Part shown: one piece after another, positions 1,328-14,683 of the stretch
Position numbering within the stretch: position 1 is the first letter of the stretch
How the letters are laid out: each line of letters opens with the position of its first letter
NCBI RefSeq assembly: GCF_003473545.1
Contig: NZ_QUCM01000011.1
Coordinates: 1-64,000, forward strand
DNA: 64,000 nucleotides
From: Clostridium sp. AM22-11AC
Lineage (GTDB): Bacteria; Bacillota; Clostridia; Lachnospirales; Lachnospiraceae
Direction of reading: 5' to 3'
Notes under the pieces: model-generated
Databases searched by the model: none
Told to the model about the DNA's origin: nothing
The model's input: only the letters and a program-made list of their open reading frames with translations
Position numbers and translations under genes: made by a program

Positions 1328-1370
1328 AAGGCTGATGCAAAAAAGATCCTATCTCTTCTGCATCAGCCTT
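1328..1370. terminator. Intrinsic terminator between convergent genes
   Basis: AAGGCTGATGCA (1328-1339) pairs perfectly with TGCATCAGCCTT (1359-1370) around a 19-base loop, followed by TTTT on the plus strand. It lies between the acyltransferase gene and the TRAP fusion gene and probably serves both. Confidence 0.7.
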
Positions 1371-1397: not shown

Positions 1398-3383
1398 TTA
1401 CTTAAATGCTGCTACCAGCTCTTCTGCATCATCATATCCCTGTCTCTGCAGTTCGCCGATATACCATTCGGTTACAGGTTCTACGATTGCCTTAAAGGAG
1501 TCGATATCCAGTTCATCATTATCAACCACTTCTACGCCATTCTTGGACTGCCACCTGGATAAGATCTCGTCATCTCCGGCACGGTTGATCTCACGCTCAT
1601 ACTGAACAGCTAATTTTCCGCACTCATCTACTACTGCCTGCTGCTCAGGAGTTAAACTGTCATAGATATCCTGATTAATGCAGAAGAACAGACAGTCATA
1701 GTTTGCATTCCAGAGAGATACATATTTCTGTACTTCCTGTACACTGGCTGCATCGATTGCTGGAAGCGGGTTTTCCTGGCCATCTACGGTTCCCTGCTGA
1801 AGAGCGGTGTATGTCTCGGACCAGTTCATATTGGTGGCATCTGCGCCCCAAAGCTCATAGCACTTCATCAGAAGGTTAGAACCTGCTACTCGCAGCTTCA
1901 AATTCTTCATATCTTCTACAGAATGTACCGGACGGACACTGTTGGTCAGCTGGCGGAAGCCATTTTCTGCCATTCCCATACAATGTAAGCCATAGGAAGA
2001 TAAGATCTCATCCATTTTCTGTCCTGCTTCCCCGTCCAGTTTTGCGTCTGCATCTTCTACAGAGTCGAAAAGATATGGCAATGAAACTACGTTAAAACGT
2101 GGATCAAATGCAGAATAGATCAGGTTGCTGTGCATGGAGATCTGTACCGGGTCACCGTTCATCAGCGCCTGGATACCTTCGGACTGGTTACCGCCGGTCA
2201 GCTGGTCTGCTGCATATACTTCTACTTTTACTTTTCCGCCGGTTGCCTGATCCATTAACTCGCCGAATTTACGTCCGGCCTGGGCCCAGGTACTGGTTTC
2301 TGTGGTAGAGCAGGTGAAATTCCAGGTCATTTCCGGCCAGTTTAAGTCACTGTGGTCTTCTACCTGGTATGCAGATGTGCTTCCGGTGCTTTCTGCGCCT
2401 GCTGCTTTTGCTGCATTATCGGTGAAAATGTGTACCAGGTCTTCTGCATCTTCATATCCCTGGTTCTTTAACTCATTGATGAACCACTCGGTTACAGGCT
2501 CTGCTGCATTCTTAAAGGACTCTACATCCAGATCCTCGTATTTTACAACTTCTACGCCATTCTTTGACTGCCAGCGTTCTAAGATCTCCTCGTCACCGGC
2601 GCGGTTGATCTCACGCTCATAAGCAACTGCCTTGCGGCCTGCTTCGTCAACTACCTTCTGCTGCTCCTGGGTCAGACTGTCATAAATGCCCTGATTGATA
2701 CAGAAAAACAGGCAGTCATAATTTGCATTCCAGAGAGATACATACTTCTGTACTTCCTGTACGCTGGCTGCGTCGATCGCTGGAAGTGGGTTTTCCTGTC
2801 CGTCTACTGTCTTCTGCTGAAGAGCAGTGTAGGTCTCAGACCAGTTCATATTGGTGGCATCTGCGCCCCAAAGTTCATAACACTTCATTAAAAGGTTGGA
2901 GCCTGCTACACGCAGCTTCAGGTTTTTCATATCTTCTACAGAATGTACCGGGTGAACGCTGTTGGTCAGCTGGCGGAAACCATTTTCTGCCATTCCCATA
3001 CAATGCAGGTCATAGCTTTCCAGGATACTTACCAGTTCTTCTCCTGCAGGTCCGTCTAAAACAGCATCCGCTGCTTCTACAGAGTCAAACAGATATGGCA
3101 GTGAAACTACGTTAAAACGTGGGTCAAATGCTGAGTAGATCAGGTTGCTGTGCATGGAAATCTGTACCGGGTCGCCGTTCATCAGTGCCTGGATACCTTC
3201 GGACTGGTTGCCACCGGTCAGCTGGTCCGCTGCATATACTTCTACTTTGATCTTGCCGCCAGTTGCCTGTTCCATTAATTCACCAAACTTACGCCCGGCC
3301 TGGGCCCAGGTACTGGTCTCTGTGGTAGAGCAGGTAAAGTTCCATGTCATTTCCGGCCAATCCAGATCACTGTAATCTTCAAT
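1398..3383 (-). repeat. In-frame tandem duplication of the DctP domain
   Basis: Two copies of about 950-1000 bp lie exactly 1020 bp apart (for example the segments at 1431 and 2451, and at 2291 and 3311). They differ mostly at synonymous sites in the core and more in the C-terminal lobe. This is an internal duplication within one gene, not an assembly overlap, because the copies differ throughout. Confidence 0.92.
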
Positions 3384-4760
3384 GGTATTAAAATCGTCAT
3401 TATCAGTTGCTGTGGTACCGCTGTCACCGCCTGTGGTCGTTCCATTTTCAACCGCTGCCGCACTTCCTAATGCTGCTGGAAGGAAAGTGGAAATTCCCGG
3501 GATATAGGTGATCAGTAAAAGCACTGCGATACTTGCCACTACCATAGATACAACTGCACGGGAGATCTGCTGTAAAGTTACCTGTAAACCATTTTTCAGC
3601 TTTACGCCGATAGCAACAAACAGATTGACACCAACTGGCGGTGTTACCTGACCGATTGCCAGGTTGACGGTTGCCATAATACCAAAGGCGATCACATTGT
3701 AGCCCAACTGCTTGCATACAGGAAGCATGATCGGGATGAAAATGTACATGGCTGAGTTTGCGTCAATAAAGCAGCCTGCGATCAGGAAGATCACATTGCA
3801 GATCAGCAAGAAAGTGAACTGATTGCCTGCTACTTTTGCCAGCAGCTGGGAAGCTGCGGTAGAGATACCAAAACGGGTACATACAAAGGAGAACAGGGAC
3901 GCACATGCTACAATAAGCATGATGCCGCCGGTAGTCTTTGCAGAGTCAATAAGGATATCCCAAAGATCTTTTAATTTTACTTCTTTATAAATTACCATAC
4001 CTACAAAAAGGCCATATACAACAGAAACGGCTGCTGCCTCAGTAGGTGTGAAAATACCGCCGTAAATACCGCCAAGGATGATAACTGGCATTAAAAATCC
4101 CCAGAATGCGTCTTTAAATGCGTCCAGACGTTCTTTTGCAGATGCCTTCTGTACATTGGACGGAACGACATGGTTTTTACGCACTTCCAACATTACCACT
4201 ACGATCAGTGCAAGTCCCATGAGAATTCCAGGAACAATACCAGCCATGAACATGTCACCAATGGAAACGCCGGTAATGGAAGCATACACAACGAAGGCGA
4301 TACTTGGCGGGATGACAATGGCAATGGAGCTGGCAGTTGCCATTAATGCAGTAGAGAATGGAGCGGAGAAGCCGCCTCTTTCTACCATAGCCGGGATCAG
4401 AACTGCGCCTAAAGCTGCTACCGTTGCAGGACCGGAACCGGAGATCGCGCCGAAGAAGCAGGCAACGATGATACATACATTTGCAATGCCGCCTTTGCGG
4501 TGTCCAACACAGGTGTCAACGAAACGGATCAGTCTGGTGGAAATACCGGCCTTTGCCATAATGTTTCCGGATAATACGAAAAACGGGATAGCAAGAAGCA
4601 GGAATTTGCTGATACCGGAGTAAATGTTAGTTGCTACAATGGTTAAAGAAGTTCCTGAATACAGAATCGCTGCTGCGGATGAAAGTCCCAGGCAGATAGA
4701 GATCGGAACATTTAAAACCAGTAAAACGAAAAAGGTGATAAAAAGAACTGCACTTACCAT
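1398..4760 (-). CDS. TRAP transporter large permease fused to two DctP-type binding domains
   Basis: This 1120 aa protein joins three TRAP modules. Residues 1 to about 430 are a complete DctM large permease (TRAP-T family, sodium-coupled uptake of organic acids), with a dozen hydrophobic segments and the motifs FGAISGSGPATVAALG and GQVTPPVG. A Gly/Thr/Asp linker follows, then two copies of a DctP solute-binding domain starting near W468 and W808. Each copy has the LKLRVAGS segment with the family's substrate-binding arginine (about R617 and R957) and the DGQENPLPAI motif. The copies are exactly 340 codons apart, nearly identical in their cores and more divergent at their C-terminal ends. Neither has a signal peptide, so both must hang from the permease's last helix outside the cell. 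The gene abuts dctQ (TAAATG), and no free dctP is nearby. The architecture is clear; the substrate is unknown. Confidence 0.93.
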   Translation of the reverse strand: MVSAVLFITFFVLLVLNVPISICLGLSSAAAILYSGTSLTIVATNIYSGISKFLLLAIPFFVLSGNIMAKAGISTRLIRFVDTCVGHRKGGIANVCIIVACFFGAISGSGPATVAALGAVLIPAMVERGGFSAPFSTALMATASSIAIVIPPSIAFVVYASITGVSIGDMFMAGIVPGILMGLALIVVVMLEVRKNHVVPSNVQKASAKERLDAFKDAFWGFLMPVIILGGIYGGIFTPTEAAAVSVVYGLFVGMVIYKEVKLKDLWDILIDSAKTTGGIMLIVACASLFSFVCTRFGISTAASQLLAKVAGNQFTFLLICNVIFLIAGCFIDANSAMYIFIPIMLPVCKQLGYNVIAFGIMATVNLAIGQVTPPVGVNLFVAIGVKLKNGLQVTLQQISRAVVSMVVASIAVLLLITYIPGISTFLPAALGSAAAVENGTTTGGDSGTTATDNDDFNTIEDYSDLDWPEMTWNFTCSTTETSTWAQAGRKFGELMEQATGGKIKVEVYAADQLTGGNQSEGIQALMNGDPVQISMHSNLIYSAFDPRFNVVSLPYLFDSVEAADAVLDGPAGEELVSILESYDLHCMGMAENGFRQLTNSVHPVHSVEDMKNLKLRVAGSNLLMKCYELWGADATNMNWSETYTALQQKTVDGQENPLPAIDAASVQEVQKYVSLWNANYDCLFFCINQGIYDSLTQEQQKVVDEAGRKAVAYEREINRAGDEEILERWQSKNGVEVVKYEDLDVESFKNAAEPVTEWFINELKNQGYEDAEDLVHIFTDNAAKAAGAESTGSTSAYQVEDHSDLNWPEMTWNFTCSTTETSTWAQAGRKFGELMDQATGGKVKVEVYAADQLTGGNQSEGIQALMNGDPVQISMHSNLIYSAFDPRFNVVSLPYLFDSVEDADAKLDGEAGQKMDEILSSYGLHCMGMAENGFRQLTNSVRPVHSVEDMKNLKLRVAGSNLLMKCYELWGADATNMNWSETYTALQQGTVDGQENPLPAIDAASVQEVQKYVSLWNANYDCLFFCINQDIYDSLTPEQQAVVDECGKLAVQYEREINRAGDDEILSRWQSKNGVEVVDNDELDIDSFKAIVEPVTEWYIGELQRQGYDDAEELVAAFK

Positions 4761-5279
4761 TTATTTATCCTCCTTTTTCATATCATTCTTTTCTGCTGCG
4801 TTTGTTTTTGCACATTCATCCACACAATACTCAATAAAGTGCAGGACCATGCACACGGAACCAATAGGGACGAAGGACCAGAAGATCCATTCCGGCCAGT
4901 TTAATACGAAGGTTCGTTTCTGGTTGGCAAGCTGTGCCAATACCTTGTCCATACCGTAATAGAATAAAATTCCCATAAAAGCCACGGAAAAAAGTGTGAT
5001 GAGAATGATCACTGGCTTTTTACATGACTTTGGCAGGCGCTCTGTTACCAGGTTTAAACCTACCAGACCTCCCTCTCTTGCAGACAATGCTGCGCCTAAA
5101 AGGGTGATCAGAACAAAAATTGCAACCACCAGTTCCTCTGTAAAAGACCATGACTGGTGGATCACTTTACGTGAAAACACGTTTCCTACTGTCAGTACAA
5201 GGATCAGGATCATGGTAGCTGCCAGAACTGCTTTTTCAACCAGCGCTACAAAGTCCATAAGCTTTTTGTACCCTTTCAT
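4761..5279 (-). CDS. dctQ: TRAP transporter small permease (DctQ)
   Basis: This 172 aa protein is the small membrane subunit of a TRAP transporter, which pairs with the large permease. Four hydrophobic segments are visible. The stretch SWSFTEELVVAIFVLITLLGAALSAREG matches the DctQ signature around the second helix. The C-terminal tail is charged (KNDMKKEDK). Its stop codon abuts the start of the fused permease gene, so the two form an operon with all TRAP functions in two polypeptides. A structured leader with a terminator lies 100-310 bp upstream. Confidence 0.9.
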   Translation of the reverse strand: MKGYKKLMDFVALVEKAVLAATMILILVLTVGNVFSRKVIHQSWSFTEELVVAIFVLITLLGAALSAREGGLVGLNLVTERLPKSCKKPVIILITLFSVAFMGILFYYGMDKVLAQLANQKRTFVLNWPEWIFWSFVPIGSVCMVLHFIEYCVDECAKTNAAEKNDMKKEDK

Positions 5280-5380
5280 ACTGCTCTCCTCCTAAATATG
5301 TAATGCTTTTACCTGTGTAAGATCCTGTGTTATTTCCGCTTTTTCTATATCATTCTTTTGCATGATGCATCAGTGAATAT

Positions 5381-5591
5381 AAAAAATCCGCCCCTTAAGA
5401 TCTAAGGGACGGATGATTAACTGATCCTGTCAGAAGTTTTCACTTTTCACGGAAAGTAAAACACCTGTAGTATCGTATAAACATACGCTGCTGCCGCTTA
5501 TGCGGATCTTATGAAAATACAGGTCCTGTGGCTCTTGCTCTCAGTCAATCGAAGCCTGCCTTTATTTTCATAACAGGTTATTAATAATGTA
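5381..5591 (-). ncRNA. Structured leader RNA or small RNA upstream of the TRAP operon
   Basis: A promoter at 5598-5626 and a terminator at 5386-5414 bound a transcript of about 210 nt. It folds on paper into a four-way junction. A closing stem ACCTGT/ACAGGT (5573-5578 with 5463-5468) encloses three arms: an 11 bp stem (5563-5573 with 5509-5519; the two stems share position 5573) topped by further pairing, a CCGC/GCGG hairpin (5494-5505), and a CGTAT/ATACG hairpin (5474-5487). A bulged hairpin (5436-5462) comes next, then the terminator, then dctQ. This looks like a riboswitch or attenuator, or a free small RNA. I do not recognise a known class, and I found no T-box, SAM or purine core. Confidence 0.6.
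5386..5414 (-). terminator. Intrinsic terminator in the TRAP leader
   Basis: Arms 5386-5397 and 5403-5414 pair with one mismatch, and six T residues follow on the minus strand. It lies about 107 bp before the dctQ start, where read-through would be needed to express the transporter. Confidence 0.75.
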
Positions 5592-5597
5592 CGTATT

Positions 5598-5626
5598 ATT
5601 GTACACGTATTCTCAAAAAACGTCAA
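5598..5626 (-). promoter_or_regulatory. Promoter of the TRAP leader and operon
   Basis: TTGACG (5621-5626), a 17 bp spacer and TACAAT (5598-5603) on the minus strand. Two CGTAT direct repeats and a GTAC-N8-GTAC motif surround the -10, so a regulator could also bind here. Confidence 0.75.
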
Positions 5627-5707
5627 CCGCTTTTTATTTTTTAAAGATGGTCTGTAAGATCTTCCTGTATTGACAATGCAAACATTTAGATGTACCATCA
5701 ACCATAT

Positions 5708-5723
5708 AGATGTATATACATCT
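5708..5723. promoter_or_regulatory. Perfect 16 bp palindrome, candidate MarR operator
   Basis: AGATGTATATACATCT is fully self-complementary and lies 27 bp before the marR start at 5750. A further AGATGTA copy lies near 5688. Position and length fit autoregulation by a MarR protein. A similar site precedes the MATE gene at 11198-11213. Confidence 0.6.
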
Positions 5724-5749
5724 TCTTTTTAGAAAGGATCGTTAAATCT

Positions 5750-6337
5750 ATGGATGATACACAGCGTAAAATAACAAAAATAGCCAGAGAAGCTGCCAAA
5801 TTTACAGTCCAGACCATGAAAGCCGAGGGCATCGGCACAGCTGAATTTGACTTTATCCATCTGGTCCGCCACAAACCGGGAATCACCCAGGCAGAAATCC
5901 GTGAAACCTTAAAGATCGACAAAGGAGCCGCTGCCCGCCGGGCTGCAAGCCTGGAAGCAAAGGGCTATCTGGTACGAAAACCAAATCCTGAAGATAAACG
6001 CAGCCAGCTTCTTTTTGCCACAGAAAAAGCGGAAGAGCTGAAAAACTCCAAGGCAAACATTGAAGACGCTTTTTATGACTGGCTCATTGCTGATCTCTCA
6101 GAAGCAGACCGCAGGGAATTCTGCCGCATCCTGGATATCCTTTACTGGAAATCCAAAGAAGAACGGAGAGCAGACTTTACCCATGTATCGGCATGGACCA
6201 ATGAAAAACTTTCCCGGATCCCCAGCGAAGAAATGACCGATCAAAAAATACCAGATAAAGAAATACTAAATAAAGAACTGCCCCCAAAAAAGGCTCCGGA
6301 AAAAGAACCACAGGAAGGAGAACTCTCACATGAGTAA
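5750..6337 (+). CDS. MarR family transcriptional regulator
   Basis: This 195 aa winged-helix repressor belongs to the MarR family. The DNA-binding region has the pattern TQAEIRETLKIDKGAAARRAASLEAKGYLVR followed by a wing (KPNPEDKRSQ), typical of the family. The C-terminal 35 residues are a charged, proline-rich tail with repeated KE/PEK motifs, longer than usual. I chose the ATG at 5750 with GAAAGGA upstream rather than one at 5690, which lies before the candidate operator. It overlaps the first ABC exporter gene by 8 bp, so it is the first gene of that operon and probably represses it. Confidence 0.85.
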   Translation: MDDTQRKITKIAREAAKFTVQTMKAEGIGTAEFDFIHLVRHKPGITQAEIRETLKIDKGAAARRAASLEAKGYLVRKPNPEDKRSQLLFATEKAEELKNSKANIEDAFYDWLIADLSEADRREFCRILDILYWKSKEERRADFTHVSAWTNEKLSRIPSEEMTDQKIPDKEILNKELPPKKAPEKEPQEGELSHE

Positions 6338-8111
6338 ACAATCTGCACCCCCCATATGCAAACATCCAGACCATGTCACCAGTTATTTTTCCATGCAAAA
6401 GGGAATTTTAGCTGTTATCACAGTGTCCGGTCTTATTTACAATCTTGGACTTATGGCCCGTCCCTGGTTTGAAGGCCAGATGATACAGTGCCTGTTTTTT
6501 ATCCAGAAAGGCCAAAGCCATTTTTCAGATATGCTGAAACTGGCATCTGCTTATTTTATTGCCATTTTTACGGTTCAGATCTCCCGTTTCATCAAACGTC
6601 TGTATGTGCGCCGCTTCGCCAACAATATCAACCGCAGTATGAAACAGACGTATTATAACAACCTGGTCCATACGGATACCTGCGATCTGAAAAATGTCAA
6701 TACCGGAAATGCCATGACAAAAGCTTTATCCGACGTAGACGCATGTTCCGAAGGGATCCGTAAATTTACAACTGAGATCTTCGATACAGGTGTAGCACTG
6801 TTTTCCTATGTTTTCATGCTTTTCGCCTACGACTGGAAACTGGCTCTTTTGTGCCTTATCTTCCCTCCTGTTTCCTATGTGATCGCAGAAAGGATGAAAG
6901 TCGTTGTCCTGAAAACAGGTGCTGCCTGCAAAGAAAGCGCCGGACGTTTAAATGCCGCAACCTTAGACCGCATCCAAAACGCCATTACCTACCGTATTTA
7001 CGGCTGTGAGACCCAGAGAAATAAAGATTATGAAACCCACCTGGCTGATTACGAAAAAGCCTCTGTACGTGCAGACCTGCCGGTAGCGGCCCTGCCTCCT
7101 ATTTATAAACTTATTTCCATGACCGGCGTCCTTCTCATCTTTTATTTTGGAAGTAAAAATGTAATGGGAACCGGCTGGACTTCCTGGGATATTGCCGCTT
7201 TCAGCGCTTTCCTTTCCTGTTTTTCCAGGCTGTCTGTAAAATCTTCCCATGCAGCCAAGCTTTTTAATGCTATCCAGAAAGCCCAGGTTTCCTGGAAGCG
7301 TATCCTTCCTTTTATGAAAGCAGGAAAAGAAGACAAACCTCTGCCAGCTTCCAGCCTTGGACAGGTAAACGCAAGATTCCTTGGATTTTCCTATGAAAAC
7401 AGCGCTCCTCTTTTCAAAGATCTGACATTCCAGGCTTCTCCCGGTGAGATCATTGGTATTACCGGCCCGGTTGCCTGCGGAAAATCCACATTAGGACGGA
7501 TCTTCCTCTGCGAGCATCCTTACACCGGCTCCCTCACCTTTAACGGTAAGGAATTTTCTTCCCTTTCACCAGATGTGCGCAATTCTCTGGTGGGATACTT
7601 AGGACATGAACCGGATCTGTTAAGTGATACCATTAAAAATAATGTTTTACTTGGGGATCAAAAGGATCTGTGGAAATACTTAGAGGCTGTATGCCTGGAA
7701 GATGAGGTACGTCATATGCCTCAGGGTGAAGATACAGTAACCGGTGAAACGGGCCTCCGTCTTTCCGGCGGACAGCAGAAGCGACTGGCTCTGGCCCGTA
7801 CACTGGCCCATCCCCGCCCGATCCTGATCTTAGATGATCCATTTTCCGCCTTAGACAAGACAACAGAAGTAGAAGTGTTTGAACACCTGCGTCAAATGGT
7901 ACCGGACAGCATTATCTTTCTCATCTCCCACCGCCTGTATCTGTTCTCGGAAACAGACGGCGTGATCTGGATGGATAATGGAACAGCAGAATTTTCTTCC
8001 CATGAAAAACTGTTGGAAGAAAATAGTGCTTACAGAGAATTATATCAGCTTCAAACTGACCATTCCGTTGTAAAACCAACAGAAAGTGCGATTGAAAGGG
8101 GGATCTGCTGA
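6330..8111 (+). CDS. ABC exporter half-transporter, degenerate-site subunit
   Basis: This 593 aa type-IV ABC exporter has an N-terminal six-helix membrane domain and a C-terminal ATPase. Walker A is GPVACGKST from G379 and the signature is a canonical LSGGQQ from about residue 478. Walker B reads ILILDDP, with Asp503 where the catalytic glutamate normally sits. The next gene has the glutamate but a broken signature, so the two form a heterodimer with one dead and one live ATP site, as in the TM287/288 and LmrCD families. The likely role is export of drugs or lipids, under the upstream MarR gene. The substrate is not known. Confidence 0.87.
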   Translation: MSKQSAPPICKHPDHVTSYFSMQKGILAVITVSGLIYNLGLMARPWFEGQMIQCLFFIQKGQSHFSDMLKLASAYFIAIFTVQISRFIKRLYVRRFANNINRSMKQTYYNNLVHTDTCDLKNVNTGNAMTKALSDVDACSEGIRKFTTEIFDTGVALFSYVFMLFAYDWKLALLCLIFPPVSYVIAERMKVVVLKTGAACKESAGRLNAATLDRIQNAITYRIYGCETQRNKDYETHLADYEKASVRADLPVAALPPIYKLISMTGVLLIFYFGSKNVMGTGWTSWDIAAFSAFLSCFSRLSVKSSHAAKLFNAIQKAQVSWKRILPFMKAGKEDKPLPASSLGQVNARFLGFSYENSAPLFKDLTFQASPGEIIGITGPVACGKSTLGRIFLCEHPYTGSLTFNGKEFSSLSPDVRNSLVGYLGHEPDLLSDTIKNNVLLGDQKDLWKYLEAVCLEDEVRHMPQGEDTVTGETGLRLSGGQQKRLALARTLAHPRPILILDDPFSALDKTTEVEVFEHLRQMVPDSIIFLISHRLYLFSETDGVIWMDNGTAEFSSHEKLLEENSAYRELYQLQTDHSVVKPTESAIERGIC

Positions 8112-11854: not shown

Positions 11855-14683
11855 TCACTGTTCCAGATATTTCTTCACATATTTTCCTGTATAGGAAACC
11901 GGGCTTTCTGCCACTTCTTCGGGAGTTCCTTTGGCAATGACAGTTCCTCCCTTGTCGCCGCCTTCAGGACCGATATCGATGATATAGTCTGCTGTTTTGA
12001 TCACATCCAGGTTGTGTTCAATGACAACAACGGTATTTCCACCGTCGGACAGGCGGCGAAGGATCTCGATCAGCTTGTGGACATCGGCAAAATGAAGGCC
12101 TGTAGTAGGTTCATCCAGGATATAAATGGTCTTTCCGGTACTGCGCTTGGAAAGTTCGGTAGCAAGTTTGATACGCTGGGCTTCACCACCGGAAAGTTCG
12201 GTAGATGGCTGTCCCAGACGGACATAACCAAGACCTACATCATATAAGGTCTGGATCTTTCTGGTAATGGAGGGCACATTTTCAAAGAATTTCAACGCAT
12301 CTTCTACTGTCATATCCAGGACATCATAGATGCTCTTTCCTTTGTATTTTACCTCCAGTGTCTCACGGTTATAGCGCTTTCCGCCGCAGACTTCACAGGG
12401 CACGTATACATCCGGAAGGAAGTGCATCTCGATCTTGATGATACCATCGCCGGAGCAGGCTTCACAGCGACCACCTTTTACATTGAAACTAAATCTGCCC
12501 TTGTTGTAGCCCTTTGCTTTTGCATCTGCTGTAGAGGCAAACAGGTCCCGGATCAGGTCAAATACACCGGTATAGGTAGCCGGATTGGAACGTGGGGTAC
12601 GTCCGATCGGGGACTGGTCAATAGCTATAATCTTATCTAACTGCTCTACTCCTTCAATGCATTTATGCTTTCCAGGAATGGTCCTTGCGCGGTTTAACTT
12701 CTTTGCGAGGGCTTTATATAAGATCTCGTTTACAAGAGAACTTTTACCGGAACCGGATACACCGGTCACACAGGTCATCACGCCTAACGGGAAGGAAACA
12801 TCGATCTTTTTCAGGTTATTCTCTTCTGCTCCCCGCACCGTGATCCAGCCCGTTGGAGTTCTGCGCTGATCAGGAACCGGAATCTGCAGACGGCCGCTGA
12901 GATAGGCACCGGTTATTGACTCCGGGTTTTTCATGATCTCTTCTGCAGTTCCCACTGCAACGATCTGTCCACCATGTTCCCCGGCTCCAGGTCCGATATC
13001 CACAATGCAGTCTGCTGCACGCATGGTATCTTCGTCATGTTCTACTACCAGAACGCTGTTTCCCAGGTCACGCAGATGCAATAAAGTTTTTAACAATTTA
13101 TCATTATCTCTCTGGTGAAGTCCTATACTTGGCTCATCCAGGATATAGGCTACTCCCACCAGACCGGATCCGATCTGGGTAGCCAGACGGATTCTCTGGG
13201 CTTCGCCGCCGGAAAGTGTGCCTGTAGCACGGGAAAGGGAAAGATAATCCAGTCCCACATCAATAAGGAAACTGATACGTGCTTTAATCTCCTTTAAAAT
13301 AGAGGCACCAATGGTCTGCTGCATAGGTGTCAGCGTCAGCCCATCCATAAATTCCTTAAATTTCACAATGGACATATTAGTAGCCTGGTAAATATTCAGA
13401 CCGCCTACTGTAACTGCCAGAGACTCCTTTTTCAGTCGCTGTCCCTTGCAGGCCGGACATGGGGTGATCCGCATATAGGTTTCATATTCTGCCTTGGAAG
13501 CTTCTGAAAAAGTCTCTTTATAGCGGCGGTTTACATTTTCGATCAGGCCCTCAAATGCTACATCGTAGATGCCTTCACCTCTCTGGCTCTTATAGCGGAC
13601 TTTTACTTCATGACCGCCGGTACCATAGATGATAATATCGTGGATCTCCTTTGGATAATCCTGAAATGGAGTATCCAGGCTGAAATGATATTCCTCTGCC
13701 AGTGCGTCTAAGATAGCCCTGGTAAAGCTTCCTTTGTCCGTACAGGACTGCCATCCCATAACCACAATGGCACCCTGGGAAATGGAAAGGGATTTATCCG
13801 GGATCATCAGATCCTCGTCAAATTCCATCTTATAGCCTAAACCGAAGCACTCCGGGCATGCTCCAAATGGGTTATTAAAGGAGAAGCTTCGGGGCTCTAC
13901 CTCGTCAATACTGATACCACAGTCCGGGCAGGAAAAACTCTGACTGAAATTCACCGGTTCCCCGCCGATCACATCTACAGTCATCAGGCCGTTGCTTAAG
14001 GACATAACCGTCTCAATAGAGTCAGTCAGACGATTTTCAATCCCCTCTTTTACAACCAGACGGTCTACAATAATATCAATATTGTGCTTAATATTTTTCT
14101 CTAATTTGATCTCTTCGGAAAGTTCGTACAGATTTCCGTCAATGCGCACACGCATATAGCCGCTTTTTCTGGCCTGCTCCAGCACTTTTACGTGTTCGCC
14201 CTTTCTTCCACGGACTACAGGTGCCAACAGCTGGATCTTGGTCCGCTCCGGCATAGCCATGATCTGGTCTACCATCTGATCAATGGTCTGTTTATGGATC
14301 TCCCTTCCACACTTTGGACAGTGGGGGATACCGATGCGGGCATAGAGAAGACGCATATAGTCATAGATCTCTGTCACGGTTCCCACTGTAGAACGTGGAT
14401 TTCGGTTGGTGGATTTCTGGTCAATGGAAATGGCTGGAGAAAGGCCTTCGATGCTTTCTACTTCCGGCTTTTCCATCTGTCCTAAGAACTGTCTTGCATA
14501 GGAAGACAGAGACTCCATATAGCGTCTCTGACCTTCTGCATAGATCGTATCAAACGCCAGAGATGACTTGCCGGAACCGGAAAGTCCGGTAAGAACCACC
14601 AGTTCATTCCTTGGGATATCTACGGATATATTTTTAAGATTATGTTCATTTGCGCCGCGTATTTTTATATACTGCTTTGGCAT
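11855..14683 (-). CDS. uvrA: Excinuclease ABC subunit A
   Basis: This 942 aa protein is UvrA, the damage-recognition ATPase of nucleotide excision repair, which loads UvrB on lesions. Full-length features are present: Walker [21 protein letters not shown], the first zinc module (CPKCG...CPDCG...CPECFG), a second ABC domain with [10 protein letters not shown], the C-terminal zinc finger (CEACSGDG...CEVCGGKRY), and two LSGGEAQRI signatures. No uvrB or uvrC lies in the window. A strong AAGGAG precedes the ATG. It lies downstream of the terminator of the peptidase operon, so it has its own promoter. Confidence 0.98.

Follow-up and report, generated by a model that had tools for sequence, protein, structure and literature searches.

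A TRAP transporter of Lachnospiraceae in which the receptor domain is fused to the permease in one to four copies

A 64,000-nucleotide stretch of DNA from Clostridium sp. AM22-11AC (Lachnospiraceae; contig NZ_QUCM01000011.1, positions 1 to 64,000; hereinafter, the window) encodes on its minus strand a protein in which the DctM permease of the tripartite ATP-independent periplasmic (TRAP) transporters is followed, within a single open reading frame, by two DctP receptor domains. The gene for the small membrane subunit, dctQ, is located immediately upstream, with its stop codon directly adjacent to the start ATG of the fused gene. We propose that these genes probably encode a tethered multi-receptor TRAP importer of isoleucine or of a 2-oxo-acid precursor, in which DctP copies that bind the same ligand share one pore. 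The parts of the system in the window are as follows.

1398..4760, minus strand: fused gene DctM-DctP-DctP, 1120 amino acids (open frame and profile matches)
4761..5279, minus strand: dctQ, small TRAP membrane subunit, 172 amino acids (Pfam DctQ, PF04290, 1.1e-30)
3471..4760, minus strand: DctM permease, residues 1-430
3354..3470, minus strand: acidic linker, residues 431-469, devoid of lysine and arginine, signal peptide and lipobox
2424..3353, minus strand: first DctP domain, residues 470-779
2334..2423, minus strand: DctP-DctP linker, residues 780-809
1404..2333, minus strand: second DctP domain, residues 810-1119 (second DctP stretch; sequence matches in PDB)

A previous interpretation made from the letters of the DNA (hereinafter, the sequence-only reading) had described a 3363-bp DctM-DctP-DctP frame at 1398-4760; the frame, the order of its parts and the coordinates all stand, but the strand had been overlooked, and the first plus-strand frame over the same interval contains many stops. 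The Pfam DctM profile spans residues 7-423 and the Pfam DctP profile matches twice; the TIGRFAM models identify a large permease (TIGR00786, 406 bits against a cut-off of 268) and a DctP receptor in two stretches (TIGR00787, 394 bits against a cut-off of 175). Counted from start to start, the register of the repeat is 1020 nucleotides, that is, exactly the 340 codons originally given. Since DNA identity between the two DctP copies is only 81% across the entire domain, reaching 86% in the better stretches, the second copy could hardly have been invented by short-read assembly. Furthermore, a chance frame or an assembly fusion is ruled out by three nearly identical two-copy proteins encoded on other contigs (P0071, P0073 and P0103, 99-100% identical to the window protein) along with the 56 fused loci (including one whose frame is broken and one truncated where its contig stops) found among the relatives (the best 79 of 173 loci from a genome scan). 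The same DctM-DctP-DctP architecture is present in a Clostridium fessum isolate (L001).

The architecture, which the sequence-only reading suggested looking for in the databases, is found in 22 of the 79 loci and belongs to a series that had been overlooked, as had the T-box leaders of the relatives and the differences in copy number between nearly identical proteins. DctP is encoded by a separate gene in 23 loci (with DctM ended by the contig in two of these) and is fused to DctM in 56, in one copy in 27 loci, in two in 22, in three in six and in four in one. By profile, these comprise 26 complete M-P loci (M and P denoting DctM and DctP) and one ended by the contig, 21 M-P-P loci and one with a broken frame (L019), six M-P-P-P loci and a single M-P-P-P-P locus (L003). 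A protein search yielded 2988 relatives, of which the best 120 were taken, and a second search brought the set to 143 proteins; three DctP domains are present in 139 of these, two in three and four in one, proportions that carry no meaning because the set was drawn from the upper end of rankings by score, which favor long proteins.

The clade to which the fused transporter belongs occurs chiefly in Lachnospiraceae. A close relative of the DctP domain is present in 19 of 397 genomes drawn from this family and, with architecture judged by frame length, the respective frames consist of 1108-1140 amino acids in eight genomes (the center genome included), 790-840 in seven and 357-388 in four. In a sample of 391 genomes from the class, with at most five candidates scored per genome, 18 have a match at 1e-40 and the long frame occurs in the center genome only. 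M-P-P and M-P forms were detected in two Treponema bins (L024 and L057, respectively) and, among the matches listed for a spirochaete sample, a 794-amino-acid frame is an M-P fusion (L100). Several loci, including those of Treponema, come from metagenome bins, and short-read assemblies may undercount the copies; in L063, the contig ends inside the first DctP domain, and such genomes might have more copies than counted. In L019, from Blautia massiliensis GD8, the frame breaks within the second DctP copy (approximately 11877-11904), be it in reality or through a sequencing error. The fusion is a trait of one transporter of C. fessum rather than of all of them because the five other DctP matches in this genome lie in frames of 362-426 amino acids.

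Comparison of the separate and fused forms points to the way in which the receptor is held at the membrane. When separate, the DctP gene comes after the DctM gene, and a lipobox, as defined by our pattern, is recognizable in 16 of the 23 loci, the remaining seven proteins starting without one. In the fused proteins, the M-P linker is acidic and 36-58 residues long, and the lipobox pattern was found in none of the 57 linkers searched, in agreement with the claim that the receptors are tethered without signal peptides; the P-P linkers comprise 17-46 residues. The sequence-only reading also made its case dependent on an outside location of the DctM C-terminus, and both a structural model and charge distribution favor this location: in all 57 fused proteins, lysine and arginine are more concentrated ahead of the last DctM helix than behind it, and the modeled DctM matches a solved M subunit over its full length (in the fold-comparison rows covering DctM and the first DctP domain). 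The DctM C-terminal end is accordingly predicted to face outside. For SiaQM, a periplasmic C-terminus has been inferred without direct observation (PMC11801797; here and below, published work is cited for the excerpts retrieved from it). With the DctM end outside, the last DctM helix would replace the lipid anchor and, at the level of the sequences, such a swap of the lipoprotein anchor for the last DctM helix is apparent.

The two DctP copies of the window did not diverge evenly. Amino acid identity between them is 90-100% over most of residues 461-700 but 55-85% over residues 701-780. The nearly identical core described by the sequence-only reading is therefore real, whereas the divergent part is, in the structure model, a C-terminal segment from the long helix onward rather than the whole C-terminal lobe, and an additional divergent patch at residues 561-580 (60% identity) went unmentioned. 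Recent duplication as the sole cause of the identical core is ruled out by the number of synonymous substitutions per site (dS), which is 0.83 between the two copies, with 0.10 nonsynonymous substitutions per site (dN). When the first copy of the window is compared with that of L001, the values are dN 0.05 and dS 1.54, so that positional partners are closer in protein sequence whereas copies from the same genome are closer at silent sites. The fraction of identical residues encoded by the same codon averages 0.69 across 29 proteins, compared to 0.485 expected from codon usage. In 12 pairs of loci that we chose as near relatives, amino acid patterns are positional in 148 cases, genome-specific in 48 and crossed in nine; for silent third positions, the respective counts are 113, 401 and 79. 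Codon usage as the entire cause of the shared silent sites is not supported, given that shuffles of synonymous codons reach the observed genome-specific count in no more than five of 200 trials in 10 of the 12 pairs; the exceptions are L017/L023 (158 of 200) and L005/L036 (200 of 200), which have the closest DctM sequences among the ten pairs compared. Positional residues outnumber genome-specific ones in eight of the 12 pairs, and six pairs of residues are fixed by position in the window, L001 and L002 (P571/E911, L576/M916, E581/S921, A707/C1047, K710/L1050 and E724/D1064). Because silent sites are homogenized within genomes while some copy-specific residues persist, we read these patterns as continuing gene conversion combined with selection that holds some of the copy-specific residues. 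The two outcomes that the sequence-only reading offered as alternatives following duplication, specialization and gene conversion, thus both appear to have left traces.

An alternative, which we consider rather unlikely, is that the copies bind the same ligand but are specialized in role; for example, one could be suited to docking on the DctM of its own chain, and the other to capture or to docking on the neighboring transporter within a dimer. In 35 proteins, the first and last copies differ mainly at residues 556-585 and 691-780, the position-fixed residues and the opposite ratios of positional to genome-specific patterns in proteins and at silent sites (148:48 and 113:401) are in line with distinct roles, and HiSiaQM has been described as a monomer or a dimer (PMC10942642). 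However, four of the 12 pairs show no positional excess, the last copy is set apart trivially by the absence of a linker behind it, and the existence of 26 complete single-copy loci implies that one copy suffices.

The clue to the ligand comes from the leaders of the relatives. In 28 loci that were scanned, most of them chosen for carrying the leader motif, the Rfam T-box model (RF00230) scores above the gathering threshold before dctQ in 18. No T-box above this threshold was detected in the motif-bearing L010, L012, L016 and L059, where the scores are too low, or in L001, L002, L014, L029, L033 and L040. All 19 aligned leaders contain ATC in the position following GAA-N, which we take to be the T-box specifier, and TGGT in the antiterminator, which presumably suits the ends of tRNA-Ile; AUC is an isoleucine codon. 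In a pattern scan, the GGGTGG core was found within 650 nucleotides of dctQ in 31 loci, with a specifier-like sequence in 25 and ATC in 24. By pattern plus L015 (a Rfam hit), isoleucine T-box loci number 25 of the 79, with L003, L005, L015 and L026 among them, and the T-box hairpin is located approximately 70-300 nucleotides upstream of dctQ in these 25; the motif is present in 22 of the 29 multi-copy loci. The hairpin in the relatives is the terminator of the T-box. A strict pattern for it matches a single site in the window and one in each of 22 loci out of 100, always before dctQ, and this single site per locus rules out a general terminator repeat as its source.

The leader in the window contains two candidate elements.

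5598..5626, minus strand: promoter-like hexamers TTGACG-17-TACAAT (weak, with six promoter-like hits against 8.0 expected)
5386..5414, minus strand: terminator-like hairpin CCGTCCC...GGGGCGG with a T run, about 105 nucleotides before dctQ (weak taken alone, with six hits against 4.1 expected)

If the promoter-like site is used, the operon leader would be approximately 300 nucleotides long, and 226 nucleotides of it fold better than shuffled sequences (z -3.4). The terminator in the window leader (5280-5597, minus strand) is of the T-box type, and the motif CTGACTGAGAGCA, or a close variant, is common to the window and L001 and, in part, L002, whose leaders, by eye, have a sequence in common that differs from the T-box; inspection by eye for a leader peptide revealed nothing. 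Given that the T-box was detected in the relatives and not in the window, the isoleucine link extends to the window by kinship only.

Most of the genes flanking the loci are uninformative. In L017, however, ilvBN (acetolactate synthase; 5293-7868, minus strand), with a T-box of its own, is divergent from the fused TRAP operon, and a LysE-family exporter is encoded beside or near the TRAP operon in 28 of the 79 loci (e.g., L050, 7814-8410, and L003, 6784-7371; two were checked with Pfam). With the isoleucine T-box motif preceding dctQ in most of the multi-copy relatives, the likely ligand would be isoleucine or a 2-oxo acid feeding isoleucine synthesis. There is a parallel in TakP, a TRAP receptor of 2-oxo acids that has been suggested to supply valine and isoleucine intermediates (PMC1839085). 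We consider it unlikely that the ligand is unrelated to isoleucine, being instead a sugar acid or a dicarboxylate as in the general annotation of DctP, even though the PDB matches include the sugar-acid binder DctPAm and the window has no recognizable T-box; both the T-boxes of the 18 scanned loci and the LysE-type exporters speak against this possibility.

On a DctM tree of 77 rows (the loci and the window), at least three changes in fusion and at least 18 in copy number are required; when 10 hand-picked proteins are added to the window and 76 loci (87 rows; a quick tree with 33 of 81 inner branches starred), the numbers are three and 24, respectively. Proteins with nearly identical or identical permeases differ in copy number: the DctM of P0004 is identical to that of L005 in 430 of 430 residues, that of P0001 to the window protein in 429 of 430, and that of P0054 to L038 in 427 of 430, and in each case the former has three DctP copies and the latter two. 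In P0001 and P0002, the additional copy is of the first type and comes with the first linker, the pattern that unequal crossing-over between first-type units would give. The turnover, the copy differences between nearly identical proteins and the abundance of single-copy fusions are all compatible with a neutral repeat, whereby recombination adds and removes copies and selection purges only the broken ones. This scenario appears improbable because the low dN relative to dS (0.10 and 0.83) suggests that both copies are under selection, although gene conversion lowers both values, and because two copies, by frame length, are found in eight of the 15 fused carriers within the family draw.

The conservation of the receptor residues argues against yet another possibility. 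Two arginines are of particular interest here.

2910..2912, minus strand: Arg617, the presumed TRAP selectivity arginine of the first copy (invariant)
1890..1892, minus strand: Arg957, the same arginine in the second copy (invariant; arginine in five of the five PDB alignments shown)

In our placement, both are presumed equivalents of SiaP Arg147; the role of the selectivity arginine in the TRAP receptor family has been described (PMC4646407). Many of the invariant residues of the first copy repeat at +340 in the second copy in the 22 two-copy proteins, and in bins of 15 residues between 511 and 690, other than 556-585 and 601-615, the first and last copies differ by 0.00-0.05 per residue. Because both copies have the invariant residues of the receptor, the presumed selectivity arginine among them, different ligands for the two copies, and with them the widened specificity raised by the sequence-only reading, are unlikely as judged by these sequence alignments. 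That the copies would broaden specificity in the manner of the two GlnPQ domains (PMC8025302) seems highly improbable despite this precedent and the difference of approximately 13% between the window copies in protein sequence.

Under the mechanism that we favor for the tethered importer, DctQ and the DctM-DctP-DctP protein would form a TRAP importer whose binding protein, normally a free one, is repeated and tied to the permease. It would be the final DctM helix that exports the DctP domains to the outer surface and holds them there, in place of the lipoprotein anchor used by a separate DctP that we presume to be ancestral. All DctP domains would bind the same carboxylate ligand and, perhaps, deliver it by turns to the single DctQM pore, and the extra copies could provide each pore with more receptors in a cell that has no periplasm, an advantage at low ligand concentration. 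The array would grow and shrink by recombination between copies, the same process homogenizing their DNA, while the few residues that distinguish the first copy from the last would be retained. Local ligand capture by tandem receptors appears to be the most economical reading; for lipid-anchored TAXI receptors, tethering has been argued to raise the local receptor concentration (PMC11574862).

Several observations weigh against this interpretation. Fusions with one copy (27 of the 79 loci) are no less common than those with two (22 loci), so repetition is not needed for function. Silent homogenization is missing in two of the 12 pairs (L017/L023 and L005/L036), and the pairs that lack a positional excess are window/L002, L001/L002, L009/L016 and L010/L018. 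With respect to the ligand, the window leader (5250-5720) has no Rfam T-box match up to E = 1, L001 and L002 have none above the gathering threshold, no neighboring gene in the window indicates the ligand, and ilvBN is found in the flanks of only one of the 79 loci. In the predicted structure of the fused protein, the pTM score is 0.42, so that domain placement is unreliable and docking is not visible. More broadly, and quite tentatively, gut Lachnospiraceae might possess a recombination-tuned array of tethered receptors whose number varies among strains, with ligand sites kept alike by gene conversion, selected docking roles for the first and last copies and, in most of the multi-copy species, control by isoleucine tRNA.

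The system appears to be a TRAP transporter in a new form: it exceeds the cut-offs of the DctP-type family for DctM and DctP, has an adjacent dctQ, and lacks the free or lipid-anchored receptor that is usual but not defining. In DctP-type transporters such as SiaPQM and IseQM, P is separate, whereas here it is fused to M and repeated. Fusions of Q with M (PMC5812351) and, more rarely, of Q with P (PMC8276074) have been named in reviews. In the passages returned by a full-text literature search, we found neither an M-P fusion nor a repeated P, although an earlier mention is possible, and among the matches listed no paper combined a T-box with a TRAP transporter. The nearest analog is the ATP-binding cassette (ABC) importer GlnPQ of Gram-positive bacteria, in which two tandem receptor domains are likewise attached to the membrane domain (PMC8025302). 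GlnPQ, however, is driven by ATP and its domains are distinct in ligand, whereas here one to four nearly identical copies are joined to a TRAP permease; with DctM as the membrane part, the window system does not belong to the GlnPQ type and would only work alike. The TAXI-GltS fusions of Lachnospiraceae, reported in 2025, also join a receptor to a secondary transporter and have been interpreted as a means of tethering in the absence of a conventional periplasm (PMC12344293), but the receptor is of the TAXI type, the permease is GltS and the substrate-binding protein is N-terminal. TakP resembles the present receptors in its suggested ligands (PMC1839085) but is separate and dimeric. In the trpXYZ system of Streptococcus suis, a receptor-dependent importer is controlled by a T-box with a specifier that corresponds to the substrate (PMC9382623); that, however, is a permease/ATPase system for tryptophan.

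The same transporter with the receptor free or fused once to four times is a natural series for relating tethering and receptor number to uptake, a valuable test given that natural variants usually differ in much else whereas here the permease is sometimes identical (430 of 430 residues). The elevator-type TRAP family would gain a permease and its receptor in a single chain, which would help to capture the docked state, and the isoleucine T-box offers a transcriptional clue to the ligand for a group of gut transporters that have a general name only.

Several minor features remain to be mentioned. Between the convergent gene ends beyond the fused gene, there is an inverted repeat that might be a terminator.

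1328..1370, no strand assigned: inverted repeat, possible terminator (20-nucleotide arms, 90% complementary)

Among the matches listed for the spirochaete sample, the DctM frames of G991, G1010, G811, G987, G989, G837 and G1005 consist of 541-546 amino acids, approximately 110 residues above the usual length. The window also contains a Clostridiales-1 RNA (RF01699; 49911-50087, 128.9 bits), and a further copy of this RNA directly follows the T-box of L021 (8336-8448).

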